Shown here in pieces: positions 20,072-43,989 of a stretch of DNA of 64,000 nt (positions are counted from its first letter, which is position 1; each line of letters begins with the position of its first letter). The stretch spans positions 62,001 to 126,000 of the forward strand of contig NZ_RKLQ01000002.1 in the NCBI RefSeq assembly GCF_019599405.1, given 5' to 3'. The stretch is from Haloarcula salinisoli. GTDB taxonomy: Archaea; Halobacteriota; Halobacteria; Halobacteriales; Haloarculaceae. Below the pieces are notes generated by a model. The model was not told the origin of the DNA, made no database searches, and saw only the letters and a list, made by a program, of their open reading frames with translations. Made by a program: the position numbers and the translations under genes.

Positions 20072-20210
20072 GGCATCCGGCGAGCGAAGCGAGCCGGTTC
20101 CCCGGAATCGCGGCCTGCCGCGATTCCGGCCTTTTTCATCGACGTTTTTCGAGGAGCCCTCCCACAGCGCGCTCGGAGAGCGCGCGAGGAAGGGCGACGA
20201 TGAAAAAGGT
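20072..20210 (-). repeat. Compound hairpin/T-run element, copy 2
   Basis: In plus orientation: CCGGCGAGCGAAGCGAGCCGG hairpin, GGAATCGCGG...CCGCGATTCC hairpin, then CCTTTTTCATCGACGTTTTT, a third hairpin GCGCGCTCGGAGAGCGCGC, and GATGAAAAAGG. Read this way the T-runs follow a strong stem, so it could terminate the EamA transcript. The 284 bp between genes (19968-20251) hold little else. Confidence 0.75.
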
Positions 20211-37084: not shown

Positions 37085-37093
37085 AACGTCTTA

Positions 37094-37118
37094 GCTCGGA
37101 GAGCGGCACGAACGTCGT
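37094..37118. repeat. Direct copy of the citrate synthase 3' end
   Basis: These 25 bp repeat 37251-37275 exactly; they encode the antisense of the last residues TTFVPLSER. The copy is 157 bp from the original, with element copy 5 between. The stop codon region is slightly altered (CTTAG versus CTTACC). Confidence 0.85.
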
Positions 37119-37122
37119 ACTC

Positions 37123-37245
37123 CCACCTTTTTCCGCCTCGGGTGGCCGTGGGCCACCACTCGTTGAAAAACGTGGGCGAAAAAGACCGGGCCGCTCACTC
37201 CGTTCGCGCCCGTGAAACCGCGCCTTCGGCGCGGTACAGATGTTC
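37123..37245 (+). repeat. Compound hairpin/T-run element, copy 5
   Basis: CCACCTTTTTCC, first hairpin GGTGGCC-GTG-GGCCACC, AAAAACGTGGGCGAAAAAG, second hairpin CCGGGCCGCTCACTCCGTT with its partner CGCGCCCG, GTGAAAC, third hairpin CGCGCC-TTC-GGCGCG, GGTACAG. It matches copy 6 most closely. It is flanked by the 25-bp duplication of the citrate synthase end. Confidence 0.85.
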
Positions 37246-38391
37246 TTACCGCTCGGAGAGCGGCACGAACGTCGTCTCTTCGGGGTCCGGACCGGTGTAG
37301 CGGGCACGCGGACGAATCAGCCGGTTGTCCTCGATGTACTCGACGACGTGGGCGACCCAGCCGCCGACGCGGGACATCGCGAAGATGGGGGTGTAGATGT
37401 CGATGGGGATGCCCATCTGGTAGTACGTCGAGGCGGAGTAGAAGTCGACGTTGGGAGCGAGTCCCTTCTCGTCCATGAGGTACTCTTCGATCGTCGTGGA
37501 CATCTCGTACCACTTCAGCGAGCCGGCGGCCTCGCCCAGCTCCTTCGAGCGCTCGCCCAGAATCTTCGCACGGGGGTCTTTGACGTTGTAGACGCGGTGG
37601 CCGAAGCCGGAGACACGACGCCCCTCGTCGAGGGCGGTCTTGACCCAGTCCAGCGGGTCTTGCTCGGCGTCGTCGACCTCTTTGAGCATCTCCATCACGT
37701 CCTGATTGGCGCCGCCGTGAAGCGGGCCCTTGAGGGTGCCGATGGCGGCGGTGACGGCGCTGTGGAGGTCCGACAGGGTGGAGGCGGTGACCATCGCCGA
37801 GAACGTCGAGGCGTTGATGCCGTGGTCGGCGTGGAGCACGAGCGCCTGGTCGAAGACGTCGGCCAGCACGTCGTCGGGCACCTCGTCGTTGAGCATGTAC
37901 AGGAAGTTCTCGGCGTGACCGAGGTCCTCGCGGGGGGCGACGGGGTCGTCGCCGTTGCGGATGCGGGTGAAGGCGGCGATGATAGTCGGTATCTTCGCGG
38001 TGATGCGCCGGCCGCGGGCGAGGTTCACGTCCTCGTCGGTCGGGTCGGCGTCCTCGGGCGCGGGGTCGAACCCGGAGAGCATCGAGACGGCGGTTCGCAG
38101 CGCTGCCATCGGGTTCTCGTCGGCCTCGGCCATCGCGCGGACCGTCGCCAGGACGGCCTCGTCGACCTCGCGCTCTGTCGCCATCTCCGAGGCGAACGCG
38201 TCGAGTTCGTCGCCGTCGGGCAGATGGCCGTACCAGAGCAGGTACAGCACCTCCTCGTAGCTGGCGCCGTTCGCGAGGTCCTCGATGGTGTACCCCCTGT
38301 AAACGAGTTCGCCCGCGTCACCGTCGATCACGCTGAGACCGGATTCGGTGACGAGGACTCCCTCCAGCCCTTTCTTGAGGTCGTCGGACAT
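37246..38391 (-). CDS. gltA: Citrate synthase
   Basis: A 381-aa protein of the short (archaeal/Gram-positive) type. The catalytic His residues are in LHADHGINASTFSA and GPLHGGANQDVME, and GFGHRVYNVKDPRAKIL with NVDFYSASTYYQMGIP completes the site (Arg, Asp). It condenses acetyl-CoA and oxaloacetate. The ATG at 38391 gives MSDDLKKGLEGVLV; an in-frame TTG two codons earlier is less likely. Its 3' end is duplicated across the repeat at 37123. Confidence 0.96.
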   Translation of the reverse strand: MSDDLKKGLEGVLVTESGLSVIDGDAGELVYRGYTIEDLANGASYEEVLYLLWYGHLPDGDELDAFASEMATEREVDEAVLATVRAMAEADENPMAALRTAVSMLSGFDPAPEDADPTDEDVNLARGRRITAKIPTIIAAFTRIRNGDDPVAPREDLGHAENFLYMLNDEVPDDVLADVFDQALVLHADHGINASTFSAMVTASTLSDLHSAVTAAIGTLKGPLHGGANQDVMEMLKEVDDAEQDPLDWVKTALDEGRRVSGFGHRVYNVKDPRAKILGERSKELGEAAGSLKWYEMSTTIEEYLMDEKGLAPNVDFYSASTYYQMGIPIDIYTPIFAMSRVGGWVAHVVEYIEDNRLIRPRARYTGPDPEETTFVPLSER

Positions 38392-38622
38392 ACCCAAACC
38401 GTATCCGACCTGCCGGGAAAAGCATTTTCTTTCCGGGCGTTCCTGTCACACGCTCGGCGGCACGAAATTGGACGTTCAGTCACCGCTGGCTCGCTGTGGT
38501 ATTCGTCTTCTAACGTATCTCGGCAGGAATGTCGGTTCTGTCGGCGCTCCGCGGGAGAGGCTATCGTGGGAGAAGATACCACAGAGCGAACGCTTTTCAA
38601 CGGCGGTGTCAAATCGGGAGCT

Positions 38623-39855
38623 ATGGAGCCCACGGGGACGGTCGAGTACGAGCCGGTGAGTGTCAAGGCAGTGCTCTCGGAGATGAAAGACACCGCCGAG
38701 TTGCTCATCGACCTCTCGTATTCGGCCGTCCTGCTGGGCAGCGACGACGTGGCGGGCGAGGTACTCGAACTGGAGGCGAAGATGGACGTCCTCCAGCTTC
38801 GTGCGCGAATGAGCCTGCTGATGGCCTGCCGGTCGCCCGACGACGCCGAATCGCTGGCCCCCGTCCTGGGGATGGTCGGTGCCGCCGAGAAGATAAGCGA
38901 CGCCGCCGGCGACATCGCCAAAGTCGTCCTGGAGGATATCGGCCTGCCGGACACGATGCGCGCCGCGCTTCCCGAAGCCGTCGAGACGCTCGTGCGAGCG
39001 ACCGTCAGGTCCGACTCGCCGCTGGCCGGGCAGACGCTGGGCACGCTGAACCTCGAAACCGAGACCGGCGTGCGGGCGCTGGCCATCCGCCGCCAGGGGA
39101 GCTGGCTGCTCAACCCCACCCGGGAGACACAGCTACAGGCCGAGGACGTGGTCCTGCTGCGCGGGCCCGAAGACGGCGTCAGCGACGTGTATCAGGACGC
39201 CACCGGCGAGCCCTACGAACCCCCGGAGCCGCCGGAGGGCGACACGCAGGACCTCGAACGCGCGGTCGACTCCATCGTCCTGATGAAGGACATGGGTGAA
39301 CTCGCGGTCGACCTGGCCTACGGCGCGGTGCTGTTCGACAGCGAGGCCGTCGCCGAGGAGGTCGTCGAGCTGGAAGCCGAAGTCGACGCCCTCCAGTCGC
39401 GGTTCGAAGCGTGGACGCTACGCGCGGCCGCGGACATGGACGACCCCGTCTCCTTGCGCGGACTGGTCCACCTGGCCCGCTCGACGGAGGTCATCTCCGA
39501 CGCCGCCCTCGAAATCAGCGAGGGCGTCTTGCGGGGCCTGTCGACGCATCCGGTCGTCGCCGAAGCCGTCCGCGAGTCCGACGAGATAATCGTGCGCGCG
39601 ACCGTCGCCGAGGAGAGCGAGCTGGCGGGCCGGACCATCGGCGACACCGCGGTCAAGACCGAGACCGGGATGCGCATAATCGCCATCCGGCGGGGAGCCG
39701 GAGAGAGCGACCGGACGGGGAGAGAAGGCGGCGAGTGGGTCGTCTCGCCCGGCCCCGAGACGCCGCTGATGGCCGGTGACGTGTTGCTCGCGAAGGGGAC
39801 CCGAACCGGCGCCGACCGCCTCGACGCGCTCACGGGGCCGAGCGAGCGAGCCTGA
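38623..39855 (+). CDS. PhoU/TrkA-C tandem protein, putative potassium regulatory subunit
   Basis: A 410-aa soluble protein with an internal duplication. Each half has a PhoU-like helical bundle (VLSEMKDTAELLIDLSYSAV; VLMKDMGELAVDLAYGAVLF) and then a TrkA-C domain (VRSDSPLAGQTLGTLNLETE; VAEESELAGRTIGDTAVKTE). TrkA-C domains gate K+ transporters, and PhoU-TrkA-C proteins exist in archaea next to channels. CTTTTCA at 38593-38599 is about 27 nt before the ATG (leaderless). It is divergent from citrate synthase. Confidence 0.9.
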   Translation: MEPTGTVEYEPVSVKAVLSEMKDTAELLIDLSYSAVLLGSDDVAGEVLELEAKMDVLQLRARMSLLMACRSPDDAESLAPVLGMVGAAEKISDAAGDIAKVVLEDIGLPDTMRAALPEAVETLVRATVRSDSPLAGQTLGTLNLETETGVRALAIRRQGSWLLNPTRETQLQAEDVVLLRGPEDGVSDVYQDATGEPYEPPEPPEGDTQDLERAVDSIVLMKDMGELAVDLAYGAVLFDSEAVAEEVVELEAEVDALQSRFEAWTLRAAADMDDPVSLRGLVHLARSTEVISDAALEISEGVLRGLSTHPVVAEAVRESDEIIVRATVAEESELAGRTIGDTAVKTETGMRIIAIRRGAGESDRTGREGGEWVVSPGPETPLMAGDVLLAKGTRTGADRLDALTGPSERA

Positions 39856-40093
39856 CCGCCGAGACGACCGTAAAGAGCGCCGTCAGTAGACCACCCAGCG
39901 AGACGAGCAAGACAAAGGCCAGCGCGCCGTAGAGGTAGGTCGGACGGGTCGTGCCGGGGAGGACGAACAGCGCGACCAGCCCCGCCGTCACGAGGGCGGC
40001 GAGGCTGAAGCCGTACTTCGCGTTGCGCGGGACGTTCAGCGCGGCGACCATCGCCGCGGCGCCACTCTCCGGTTCGGACTCGGTCACGTCCAC
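39830..40093 (-). CDS. 87-aa two-helix membrane protein
   Basis: A GTG-started protein MDVTESEPESGAAAMVAALN then VPRNAKYGFSLAALVTAGLV and a second helix YGALAFVLLVSLGGLLTALF. Two TM helices, acidic start, basic end. It overlaps the convergent PhoU/TrkA-C gene by 26 nt. An internal ATG (MVAALNVPRN) is an alternative start. No function recognised. Confidence 0.75.
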   Translation of the reverse strand: MDVTESEPESGAAAMVAALNVPRNAKYGFSLAALVTAGLVALFVLPGTTRPTYLYGALAFVLLVSLGGLLTALFTVVSAVRLARSAP

Positions 40094-40203
40094 CGGTAGG
40101 CGGGGGTGGAAAAAGACCCCATCGGTGTCGTGACGGGGCCACGGGGCGGTTTCGCCACCGCGAATCCGAACCAGTAAAGTCGGACAACCCGAATGAACGC
40201 GTA

Positions 40204-41160
40204 ATGGTAACTCTCGGTACGGCGAGTGCCGCTCCCGGTGAGATAGACACCGGGCGTCTAGAGGTCGGCGAGAGCCGCGACGGCAGCCCCGTCGGCCTGC
40301 CCGTCGCGGTCGTCAACGGGTCACAGGACGGCAAGACTCTCTACATGCAGGCCGCGAGCGACGGCGACGAGCTGAACGGCGTCGGCGTCATCCAGCGCGT
40401 CGTCCCGCAGCTGGACCCCAGCGAGCTTTCGGGCGTTATTCTCATCTGTGGCATCGTCAACTACCACGCCTTCCAGATTGCCGAACACCGCAACCCCATC
40501 GACGACACGAAGATGAACCGGGCCTACCCCGGCGACGCCTCGGGCACCTCCAGCGAGCGCATCGCGGCGGCGACACACGACGCCGCCGTCAGCGCCGACC
40601 TCGTCGTCGACCTCCATCAGGGGTCGACCTCGCAGATGATCGAAGAAGTGCGTGTCCGGTGTGGCTCCCGGCACCGGCTCCACGAGGAGTGTCTCGAACT
40701 CGCGAAGGTGTTCGACTGTGGCTATATCCTAGACCAGAAGGGGCCTGACGGCCAGCTGGCCCGGGCAGCGCCCGACGAGGGCGTCCCGACCATCGACCCG
40801 GAACTGGGCGGCTGTGTCGGCTGGGACGAGGAGTCGATTCGGGCGGGCGTCGACGGCGTCTTCAACGTCCTTCGCTACTACGACTTCCTGCCCGGCGGGT
40901 ACACGCCCTCGCCACAGGCCCGCGCGACCGGGTTCGAGCAGTACGGCTCACCGGTCGGCGGGCTCGTGAACTTCCACCCGAACCTGGGGGACCGCGTGAG
41001 CCGCGGGGACACGCTGTTCGAGGTGACAGACGTCTTCGGCGAACGGAAAGCCGAGATAGCCGCCGACTCGGCCGGTGTCTTCTGGCGCTCGCGCCGGCTC
41101 CCGCAGGTCGCCACCGGTGAGTACGTCTGTTCGATCGGGACGAACATCGACACGTACTAG
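40204..41160 (+). CDS. Succinylglutamate desuccinylase/aspartoacylase family protein
   Basis: A 318-aa zinc-dependent deacylase. TLYMQAASDGDELNGVGVIQ is the position of the HxxE zinc site, VDLHQGS the downstream zinc His, and KMNRAYPGD the substrate Arg motif. In most members the first zinc ligand is His (HGDE); here it reads SDGDE, so Asp replaces His, as in some related deacylases. GYTPSPQARATG then a lipoyl-like C-terminal beta domain (HPNLGDRVSRGDTLFEV) follow. Substrate unknown. It ends on a CTAG shared with the convergent lipoprotein gene. Confidence 0.88.
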   Translation: MVTLGTASAAPGEIDTGRLEVGESRDGSPVGLPVAVVNGSQDGKTLYMQAASDGDELNGVGVIQRVVPQLDPSELSGVILICGIVNYHAFQIAEHRNPIDDTKMNRAYPGDASGTSSERIAAATHDAAVSADLVVDLHQGSTSQMIEEVRVRCGSRHRLHEECLELAKVFDCGYILDQKGPDGQLARAAPDEGVPTIDPELGGCVGWDEESIRAGVDGVFNVLRYYDFLPGGYTPSPQARATGFEQYGSPVGGLVNFHPNLGDRVSRGDTLFEVTDVFGERKAEIAADSAGVFWRSRRLPQVATGEYVCSIGTNIDTY

Positions 41161-41627
41161 CGGTTCGTCGGGGCCGCTGTCGGCGGCCCAGTCCGTGTTT
41201 CGGTCGACAGTCCACCGGGCGGGGGTTCGGCCGGGGTCAGGTCGATGGGGCGGTCGGTTTCGTCTGCGAGCACCGCGTCGTCTCGAAGGACCACCTCTGT
41301 CGTCGGCTCCCAGACGTGTCGCGTCGTCGTCCGGTACTCGCCGTCGACCGAGATGTGCAGGTAGAACGGATACGGCCAGTCGGAGCGGGTGATGACTCCC
41401 TGTCGCTCGACTGTCGAACCCCCCTCGACAGTGGCGGACCACGATTTCGTGTCGTAGCTGTCCCCGCGGTCCATCGTCACCGCGACCGAGTGGTCGGTTC
41501 GGTCCCAGTTCTCGATACGGAGGTCGCCGTCAGACCCCGCCAGCCCGCCGCTACAGCCGGCAAGCGCCGCACACAGGGCGGCACCGACCGTGCCGAGAAG
41601 CCGCCTGCGTGACTGGTGGCGGGCCAT
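41157..41627 (-). CDS. Tat-type lipoprotein, small beta-domain
   Basis: A 156-aa protein. MARHQSRRRLLGTVGAALCA then ALAGCSG: a twin-arginine/lipobox export signal. The mature part (LRIENWDRTDHSVAVTMDRG, WSATVEGGSTVERQGV, PFYLHISVDGEYRTTTRH) is all beta, like a small extracellular Ig-type domain. Function unknown. Confidence 0.8.
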   Translation of the reverse strand: MARHQSRRRLLGTVGAALCAALAGCSGGLAGSDGDLRIENWDRTDHSVAVTMDRGDSYDTKSWSATVEGGSTVERQGVITRSDWPYPFYLHISVDGEYRTTTRHVWEPTTEVVLRDDAVLADETDRPIDLTPAEPPPGGLSTETRTGPPTAAPTNR

Positions 41628-41684
41628 TTGTGTCGACGACGAAACAGGTCGAGATAAGCTTTGTGTGTGGTGGTGTCGGCCAGG

Positions 41685-41888
41685 CTAGCGCCACAACACC
41701 AGCGAGACGGGTGTGTCGGCATCGACCGAGACCCACTGTGAGTCGACCTCTGCCGGGTCGACGTCGGTGGCATAGCAGATGTACCGCTCCGTCCCGTCCG
41801 AGCGACTCCTGACGACCGCCGGCAAAACGCCTTCGTCGGGGTCCGGCGACGGCGTCCCGCCGGACGCTGACTGGTGTTCAGTGCTCAT
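41685..41888 (-). CDS. 67-aa haloarchaeal protein, tandem paralogue 1
   Basis: MSTEHQSASGGTPSPDPDEG with the core AVVRSRSDGTERYICYATDV and ending SQWVSVDADTPVSLVLWR. It shares the pattern W..V....V.L...R with the next protein upstream (41946-42161), so the two are tandem paralogues, possibly of the DUF7511 type. No cysteine clusters, no membrane segment. Function unknown. Confidence 0.65.
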   Translation of the reverse strand: MSTEHQSASGGTPSPDPDEGVLPAVVRSRSDGTERYICYATDVDPAEVDSQWVSVDADTPVSLVLWR

Positions 41889-41945
41889 AGACGGGCTGTG
41901 GCGGAGAAAGAGTATTGTTACCGGTCGGTTATCCGACCGAAGGCG

Positions 41946-42161
41946 TCACCGAATGTCACCGAGGTCGACGAGAAGCCCCTCGGGAACCGCCAGCCAGTGG
42001 GTCGCCTTTTCCACATCGAGTCTGTCGTCGGGGTACAGCAGGGCACGCTGGCCACCGTCGGCGGTGGGTTCCAGTTCGCTGGTGAGCAGTGCCTCGCTGA
42101 ACTCGTCCTGTGGTAGTGGTGGCCGCGTCTCGATCTCCGATGGCGGCGACTCGCTGCTCAT
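41946..42161 (-). CDS. 71-aa haloarchaeal protein, tandem paralogue 2
   Basis: MSSESPPSEIETRPPLPQDE, then LLTSELEPTADGGQRALLYP and EKATHWLAVPEGLLVDLGDI. It is a distant sister of the protein at 41685-41888 with the same HWL..PEG..VDL ending. The ATG at 42161 is preferred over an upstream in-frame start that adds a disordered stretch. Function unknown. Confidence 0.65.
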   Translation of the reverse strand: MSSESPPSEIETRPPLPQDEFSEALLTSELEPTADGGQRALLYPDDRLDVEKATHWLAVPEGLLVDLGDIR

Positions 42162-42313
42162 GGACTCTCTACCAGCACTATACGTATTGTTATACAATCC
42201 ATAATCGGGGTCCGGCGGGGAGTTCGGCCGGCCTACCATATCGTTCGTCGAGGCTACCGTCGTGGACGGTTCGCTCAGTCGAACGTCTGTTCAGGACGTG
42301 ACAGCCGGTGAAG

Positions 42314-42361
42314 CTACCGCTCCGGATGTGTCGCCCCGTCGAACCCGCCCCGGACCAGCGG
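42314..42361. repeat. Direct copy of the tiaS 3' end
   Basis: These 48 bp match 42499-42546 with a single difference (GATGTGT versus GATGCGT). They include the stop codon and the last ~15 codons of TiaS. The copy lies 185 bp from the original, and element copy 6 fills the space. Confidence 0.9.
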
Positions 42362-42369
42362 CTCCACGA

Positions 42370-42498
42370 CCACCTTTTTCTACGGGGGGTTCGGGCGCTT
42401 CGCGCCCTCAACCCCCGCACAAAAACGTGGGCGAAAAAGGCCGAGCGCTCACTCCGTTCGCGCTCGGTGAAACGGCGGCCATGGGCCGCCGTATACTC
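42370..42498 (+). repeat. Compound hairpin/T-run element, copy 6
   Basis: CCACCTTTTTC, a first hairpin (GGGGGTTCGGGCGC, then GCGCCC and CAACCCCC), AAAAACGTGGGCGAAAAAGG, second hairpin (CCGAGCGCTCACTCCGTT, then CGCGCTCGG), TGAAAC, third hairpin GGCGGCC-AT-GGGCCGCC, GTATACTC. Of its bases the block from AAAAACGTGGGCG to GTGAAAC is almost the same as in copy 5. It ends directly at the tiaS stop codon. Confidence 0.87.
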
Positions 42499-43764
42499 CT
42501 ACCGCTCCGGATGCGTCGCCCCGTCGAACCCGCCCCGGACCAGCGGTTTCGCGATGTGGCGGCGCGCGACCGGCGGGACCTCGTACCAGCCCGGTTCGAG
42601 GTCGCGCTCGATGGGTCGGTCGACCTTCCCGTCGGCGCTGGTCGAACAGTCCCGACAGCGATACCCCTGGTTCCGGCCGGCCGAGGACATCGTCGCGCCG
42701 CAGTCGGGACAGGTCGGCGTCGCCGGTTCAGTCCGTACAAGCTCCCGGACCGCGAACTTCTCCAGTTTCAGGGTCCCGTCGGTCACCTCGCCACAGACAG
42801 TAATCTCGTCGCCCTCGCGCAACGCCCGCACGCGGTCACGGAACCGTTTGGTAGGTTCGAACGCGGCACACTGGAGCCGGGCCTCGCGGTCTGCAATGGA
42901 CAGGAAGACGTGGCCGCCCTCACGGGTCTCGGGCGCTGTGGCGACGGTTCCGGTGACGCGGTAGGCGCTGTCGTCGGCCACCGCCCCCACAGTGCCGTCC
43001 TGCAGGTGGACGTCGGTCCCCTGGTTGGTCACAAACGTCACACGCCGGTCGATTGGCTCGCTCTCGATGGCGTCGGCGACGGCCCGGCAGGCCTCGGGGT
43101 CGTCCCCCCGAATCCCGTAGAGGATTGGACAGGGCGTCCGGGGGACCGAGACCGGGTAGCCCGAGGCGCGGTCGACGGTGTCCCACACCGCCGGGTAGTG
43201 TCTGTCTGCCGCCGCACGGACGCTCTCCGCGTCGACAGCGCGCTCCGTCCCCCAGCGGTCGGCCTCGCGGTAGGCGATGTGTTCGTACGTCCAGTCCTCG
43301 AGTGCGGCCCACGCGCCGACGGCCGCCAGCGCGCCGACCAGCCCCCGACCGTTGCCGTGCTGGCAGCGCGCGAAGCCGACAGTGTCCGCAAGCAGCGTCG
43401 CCGTCGTGATGTCCTGAATCGCCCGAATCGCGTCGCGCGTGAACTCGGCTACCTGCGGCGGGACGGCGTCGGGCGCGCAGTCGGCGACGACGGCGCCGGG
43501 ATTCGTCCTCGGGTCGTCGGTCTGTGCCAGGTCGAGTACGTCACGGACCAGCGCCATCGCCCGGTCGGCGTCGAGGTCCGTATGCACGGCGAGTGCGGCG
43601 TTCCCGCGGGTCTTGTGCTCGACGGCCGGGTTGAGCCGGACGAGGAGCAGCCGCTCGACACGGCCGCCGCTGTCGCGTATCCGGTCGGCCAGCTCGGCGG
43701 CCGCGTACGTCGTACACATCCCCCTCTCCCGGGAATCGGTATCGTCCAGTCCGACGACGGTCAC
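42499..43764 (-). CDS. tiaS: tRNA(Ile2) 2-agmatinylcytidine synthetase (TiaS)
   Basis: A 421-aa protein. [20 protein letters not shown] is the ATP/substrate-binding start; [40 protein letters not shown] and [18 protein letters not shown] are TiaS motifs; an OB-fold then leads to a zinc ribbon ([10 protein letters not shown]...YRCRDC). It modifies C34 of tRNA-Ile2 with agmatine so that AUA is read. GTG at 43764 gives the family start; an ATG 20 codons upstream adds residues not typical of TiaS. Its 3' end is duplicated across the element at 42370. Confidence 0.93.
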
Positions 43765-43989
43765 ACCCTCGGATACTGGATTCGATGGGATAGCGGTTTC
43801 GTCGCTAGCTTGGGAGTGTCTCACTGCGAGACCAGCCCGGCAACTGCCAGAACGCCTCGAGCGGTCCCGTTCAGACGACAGCAGAGCGGCTCCGGTACTG
43901 ATACCGCTGTCAGGGCGCGACTAACCCCGATTTCGGGGACGGCACAACGCATATATGGAGTGAATGGCTTAAGGCCCAGTAGAGAGCAG

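Follow-up and report, generated by a model that had tools for sequence, protein, structure and literature searches.

A 64,000-nucleotide stretch of Haloarcula salinisoli DNA (the window) carries the genes for citrate synthase (gltA) and TiaS, and in both cases the last codons of the gene occur a second time beyond a short, hairpin-rich sequence. This raises the question of what the intervening sequence is and how a second copy of each gene end came to lie on its far side.

The gltA and tiaS loci and the element between the repeats

The repeats were as described in the initial annotation. A 25-bp end of gltA at 37251-37275 recurs exactly at 37094-37118, and 48 bp of the tiaS end (42499-42546) recur with one mismatch at 42314-42361, a match that extends to 56 bp (93%). 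Related hairpin and T-run sequences of 123 and 129 bp lie between the two pairs, also as claimed. The citrate synthase gene was matched by NCBIfam NF041301 at 710 bits (cut-off 550), while tiaS reached 354 bits with NF040849, under the cut-off of 600, so the name TiaS rests on a strong but sub-threshold match. A common gene ending, GAGCGGTA(A/G), had also been noted; it is true of gltA and tiaS, but most other affected genes end differently, and GAGCGGTA(A/G) was therefore rejected as a shared target or recognition motif. The GAGCGGTAA/TAG ending common to both window genes is coincidental.

Judged by their letters and predicted folds, both window copies (37123-37245 and 42370-42498) are one element, which we named E (Table 1). 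It measures 123 bp in the gltA copy and 129 bp in the tiaS copy, with CCACC as one boundary and the base next to the stop codon as the other, and is typically about 120-140 bp long and non-coding, with no room for a gene. E is composed of two modules of T5C signals (TTTTTC) and hairpins, with one TTTTTC on the plus strand and two on the minus strand. Module M runs CCACCTTTTTC, hairpin 1, GAAAAACGTGG, and its outer sequences form an imperfect 11-bp terminal inverted repeat predicted to close as a single stem with a CCCAC/GTGGG base; the left end of E (CCACC) is thus the base of a terminal hairpin. Module T lies outside this inverted repeat, runs GCGAAAAAGGCCG, hairpin 2, GTGAAACC, hairpin 3, and adjoins the minus-strand gene at its stop codon. 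Hairpin letters vary from copy to copy and the hairpin form is kept. The whole tiaS copy gave a fold z of -6.8 on the minus strand, and 0.00 matches to AAAAACGTGGGCGAAAAAGG were expected in shuffled windows. No known RNA family matched E above threshold, and no match was found among viral contigs. A variant third copy in the window (20130-20149, minus strand) has the core AAAAACGTCGATGAAAAAGG (ACCTTTTTCATCG...CGATGAAAAAGG) and no adjoining gene-end repeat.

Table 1. Features of the gltA and tiaS loci in window coordinates; D is the displaced gene end and D' the live end.
Feature	Position	Strand	Basis or remark
gltA displaced end D	37091..37118	-	Direct repeat; stop side damaged by 2-bp deletion (alignment TCTTA--GCTCGG...)
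gltA junction actc	37119..37122		One extra purine and three gene bases (CTC) before CCACC
gltA copy of E, module M	37123..37175	+	CCACCTTTTTC, hairpin 1, GAAAAACGTGG; sequence and fold
gltA copy of E, module T	37176..37245	+	GCGAAAAAG, hairpins 2 and 3; adjoins gltA stop; sequence and fold
gltA live end D' matching D	37246..37275	-	Direct repeat
gltA, live gene, end rebuilt	37246..38397	-	NCBIfam NF041301; ORF
tiaS displaced end D, coding for C-terminal residues	42314..42369	-	Direct repeat and translation
tiaS copy of E, module M	42370..42430	+	Sequence and fold
tiaS copy of E, module T	42431..42498	+	Adjoins tiaS stop; sequence and fold
tiaS live end D' matching D	42499..42554	-	Direct repeat
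tiaS, live gene, end rebuilt	42499..43824	-	NCBIfam NF040849, sub-threshold

Distribution of gene-end repeats and their junctions

A pattern search of the H. salinisoli genome found about 20-30 copies of E. When these were checked for flanking repeats of the adjacent gene end, 10 of about 20 were positive, with alignment scores of about 13-54, most of them above 24; for 380 swapped-flank controls the 99th percentile was 13 and the maximum 15.5. Core matches in this genome showed an unexpected bias, 25 of 30 lying on the plus strand of their contigs. A wider sample, collected by exact pattern, listed at least 123 copies, mostly from Haloarculaceae and the rest from related haloarchaea. With a repeat called at a flank alignment score of at least 18, 53 of the 123 copies among the matches listed had a neighbouring gene-end repeat of up to 125 bp, compared with 15 of 1463 swapped-flank controls (about 1%). 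Gene-end repeats thus accompany these 53 copies, and in more than half of the sample, the other 70 among the matches listed, no duplication was detectable. Repeats were 19-221 bp long (median 62), and widening the flanks to 1.2-1.6 kb lengthened them only at L223 and in one array. The layout places D on the CCACC side of E and D' on the module-T side.

Among the 70 repeat-less copies listed, 33 lie close behind the end of a plus-strand ORF, with T5C behind its stop codon and the gene on the other strand, and a few lie behind tRNA ends; none of the 53 repeat-bearing copies among the matches listed stands just behind a plus-strand gene or tRNA end. At five loci (L118, L143, L178, L187 and L216), the CCACC end directly follows an apparent tRNA 3' end.

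The sites of repeat-bearing E are housekeeping genes with intact live copies, more than 20 different genes in all. NCBIfam models matched tiaS, gltA, nuoI, pheT, argF, gyrA, etfA and gatA, the ileS piece matched IleRS-type models only, and the remaining genes were named by eye from their C-termini. The location, the rebuilt live end and the recurrence in many genes and genera support the suggestion that E inserts into last codons and rebuilds the end, although one gene is affected at its start: in a Gfo/Idh-like gene, E lies at the start codon instead (L002 in H. salinisoli, G008, G001, L116 and L222). At L002 and at L106 of G008, the ATG of the displaced copy is preserved, and E is traversed by an open frame whose TGA overlaps the real start (ATGA), in a manner resembling translational coupling.

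The join between CCACC and the native gene falls 25-95 nt ahead of the native stop (239 nt in one case). In about 15 of the 20 clean cases, the displaced copy contains one base more than the gene, a plus-strand purine at a distance of exactly 3 nt from CCACC. We found no constant att core or strong consensus at 32 junctions and no site-specific recombinase encoded in the roughly 130 bp of E, and the likeness to tRNA-targeting elements drawn in the initial annotation is therefore one of logic rather than of membership. At 20 of the 32 junctions there is a T at plus-strand position -7 (A at +7 in the sense direction), possibly a weak target preference. GGTGG opposite the CCACC end was considered as a target motif and rejected because its best offset barely exceeded the neighbouring codon-phase offsets; a small ORF starting from the GTG of GGTGG was also rejected, since its frames disagreed between loci on inspection.

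Comparison across relatives, using one genome per species, followed the check proposed for empty sites. Within the genus, 26 of 30 tiaS loci were without E, and all of these 26 had a single gene end; single ends were likewise found at gltA and nuoI where E was absent. Relatives lacking E do not carry both copies of the gene end, which indicates that the repeat came with E. At tiaS, D and E occur together with one common junction in G000, G028 and a decayed copy in G025, and E occurs without D in G021. D is present at gltA in H. salinisoli, G004, G009, G012 (two extra copies), G021, G028, G033 and G037, most of which have a common junction some 86 nt ahead of the stop, and at nuoI only in H. 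salinisoli, G008 and G030. Sister pairs such as G009 and G037 share D by descent, and D-D' similarity at pheT and a DHH gene persists across genera. In 17 of 23 comparisons (deep distances), D was closer to its own D' than to other D copies. Two elements in succession with three gene-end copies occur in H. salinisoli (C1:61048-61400; L001, L039, L040) and at gltA of G012 (L078).

Origin of the displaced ends

In most cases D retains its own stop and an intact C-terminus, and in more than 10 pairs the stop codons of D and D' differ yet remain stops. The 134 differences between D and D' fall largely at codon position 3 (86, or 64%), and 87 are silent. Before their stops, D and D' read VVPAESE and VVPVDAE in gyrA L190, VVPATTEE and VVPAETE in gyrA L207, and RLPEEE and RLPEEAEEGVDTER in the DHH gene of L176, whose D' resembles the Haloarcula copies L147 and L157. 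At ileS L223, the 239-nt D codes for an IleS end that is diverged yet intact (...AEMRKDLELDIEERIVVDLAIDDERV...AAAEVVD), and D' encodes a diverged ...AAAEASD in which many third positions are A/T against G/C in D; the two copies agree fully over the first 23 nt from the junction, and the divergence is mostly silent. From junction to stop, the mismatch between D and D' by thirds was 0.038, 0.046 and 0.119, rising in 23 pairs and falling in 8. These patterns suggest that the stranded D is usually an intact former gene end and not a decaying duplicate. For nuoI and gatA of H. salinisoli and gltA of G009 and G037, D has the stop of E-less relatives and D' a different one, a pattern that fresh target duplication does not produce.

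On balance, we lean towards a reading in which E spreads as a package with a gene 3' end, rebuilds the gene it enters, displaces the native end and is later reshuffled. The package would consist of a guest end D', its stop and E, and would recombine with the host's orthologous gene by way of conserved coding sequence, giving a seamless transition from host gene to guest end. At its opposite end, E would be attached by the CCACC base of the terminal hairpin to the native gene at a point ahead of the native stop, leaving the native end D on the far side of E. Later, D and D' could serve as homology arms by which a D-E-D' cassette moves between lineages, and recombination between them would partly homogenise them and could delete E cleanly. 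We infer these recombination steps, and the direction of transfer (D native, D' imported) from a handful of informative sites. With D native and D' arriving with E, these informative cases are closer to att-like gene-end replacement than to simple target duplication, of which the initial annotation had named a long form as an alternative; we retain that form as a rival below.

The D-E-D' anatomy, its recurrence, the intact D ends, the silent bias, the gradient toward the stop and the single-ended orthologues without E all speak for gene-end replacement. Counting against it are the extra purine near CCACC, the failure of our comparisons to identify a donor for D', and near-identical pairs such as gltA of G033, where D equals D' over 86/86 bp from stop codon to junction, as is also expected from fresh target duplication. 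Since D resembles its own D' at deep distances, the reading needs gene conversion or repeated acquisition in addition, and together with the junctions common to several species this resemblance points to a cassette later reshuffled or homogenised by homologous recombination.

Alternatively, E may transpose with an unusually long and variable target duplication (25-140 bp). Insertions would survive only if the gene end falls within the duplication, since the gene then stays intact, and D would afterwards drift, subject to gene conversion with D'. This would accommodate the perfect repeat in G033, the repeats that continue past the stop (by about 47 bp in L108, and also in L175), a short possible non-coding repeat at L015 in H. 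salinisoli, the existence of orthologues without E and the tracking of D with its own D'. We nevertheless consider it unlikely, as repeats in the simple cases end at the stop codon even where no coding difference separates the two copies, the stops or C-termini of D and D' often differ and yet are intact, the 70 repeat-less copies among the matches listed yielded no long repeat in purely intergenic DNA, and the long D of L223, diverged mostly at silent sites, is no recent duplicate.

A tandem origin, in which E already lay 3' of the gene, the gene end and E were doubled by template switching or hairpin-base breakage, and the outer E was lost, appears quite improbable. Arrays of nearly identical units (L171, L157, L174, L120 and gltA of G012) indicate that tandem duplication also occurs, a remnant of module T or of E lies beyond D in L147, L148, L168 and G006, and every joint falls at the base of the hairpin. 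At tiaS and at gltA and nuoI of H. salinisoli, however, there is no E or remnant beyond D and the native flank matches that of E-less relatives, and the different intact C-termini of D and D' would be left unexplained. Retention of D for a function, such as producing an RNA antisense to the gene end and terminated at the T5C of E, would suit the position of D directly before CCACCTTTTTC on the plus strand and the cross-genus similarity seen at pheT and the DHH gene, but is very improbable given that the length and position of D vary between species at the same gene, that D at gltA of H. salinisoli is damaged, and that the silent-site bias points to coding constraint rather than pairing.

Relation to known elements and terminators

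Integrative elements at gene 3' ends, which use att sites in tRNA or protein genes and tyrosine integrases, resemble E in bringing a gene-end copy that rebuilds the gene and in leaving the native end on the far side, where recombination between the repeats would restore the gene. Unlike them, E has no integrase or coding capacity in its roughly 130 bp, has a different arm for each of more than 20 genes with no constant core, and has one junction that is always the base of its own hairpin. Casposons are kilobase elements that encode Cas1 and a polymerase and insert at gene 3' ends with short target duplications. E shares with them the gene 3' end sites and the duplications, but it is non-coding and has longer, variable repeats.

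Like the MITEs, PATEs and SMRs of haloarchaea, E is short, transposase-free, repeated and built on hairpins or inverted repeats. It has the terminal inverted repeats of a MITE, by way of module M, but in place of a short target duplication of fixed length it has repeats of 19-221 bp; common duplications of Halobacterium transposons are 5, 8 and 10 bp (PMC3119063). The SMRs of Haloquadratum walsbyi are close to E in size (about 80-110 bp), show no target duplications and target PATEs and IS605-type elements (PMC3119063), whereas E has gene-end repeats and sites in housekeeping genes.

The TTTTTC signal on both strands of E is that of the T5C intrinsic terminators, which gave 95% termination in Haloferax volcanii (PMC7237163), and E is therefore probably a bidirectional terminator. 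E itself is a dispersed, repeated and composite element rather than a single site. Our limited open-access literature search turned up only the Haloquadratum repeat classes and work on terminators, and no earlier description of E, which may be described elsewhere.

More broadly, E may represent a class of mobile terminators that lack an enzyme and pass between archaeal species with gene-specific 3' ends as their arms of homology, exchanging the C-termini of essential genes time and again and stranding the old ends, a generalisation we put forward tentatively and at somewhat less than even confidence. If true, a coding-free element of about 130 bp does in more than 20 housekeeping genes what tRNA-targeting islands need an integrase for. 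It would also account for the dispersal of a terminator family among species whose intergenic DNA is unrelated, make the old and new C-termini that lie side by side a record of past gene-end recombination, and offer a tractable system for hairpin-base recombination in polyploid archaea. For annotation, it would mean that short gene-end copies beside E hairpins are displaced ends.

Variation within the element was also observed. Extra hairpin modules occur in the core of E at L022, L024, L073 (G006), L077 (G011), L202 and L220, inserted after GTGG and ending in GGTGG before (C)GAAAAAG, and they resemble nested modules of the E family. In the gltA copies of the close relatives G003, G005 and G011 (L070, L072 and L077), the hairpin letters differ and the folds persist, which suggests rapid hairpin swapping at the same locus.
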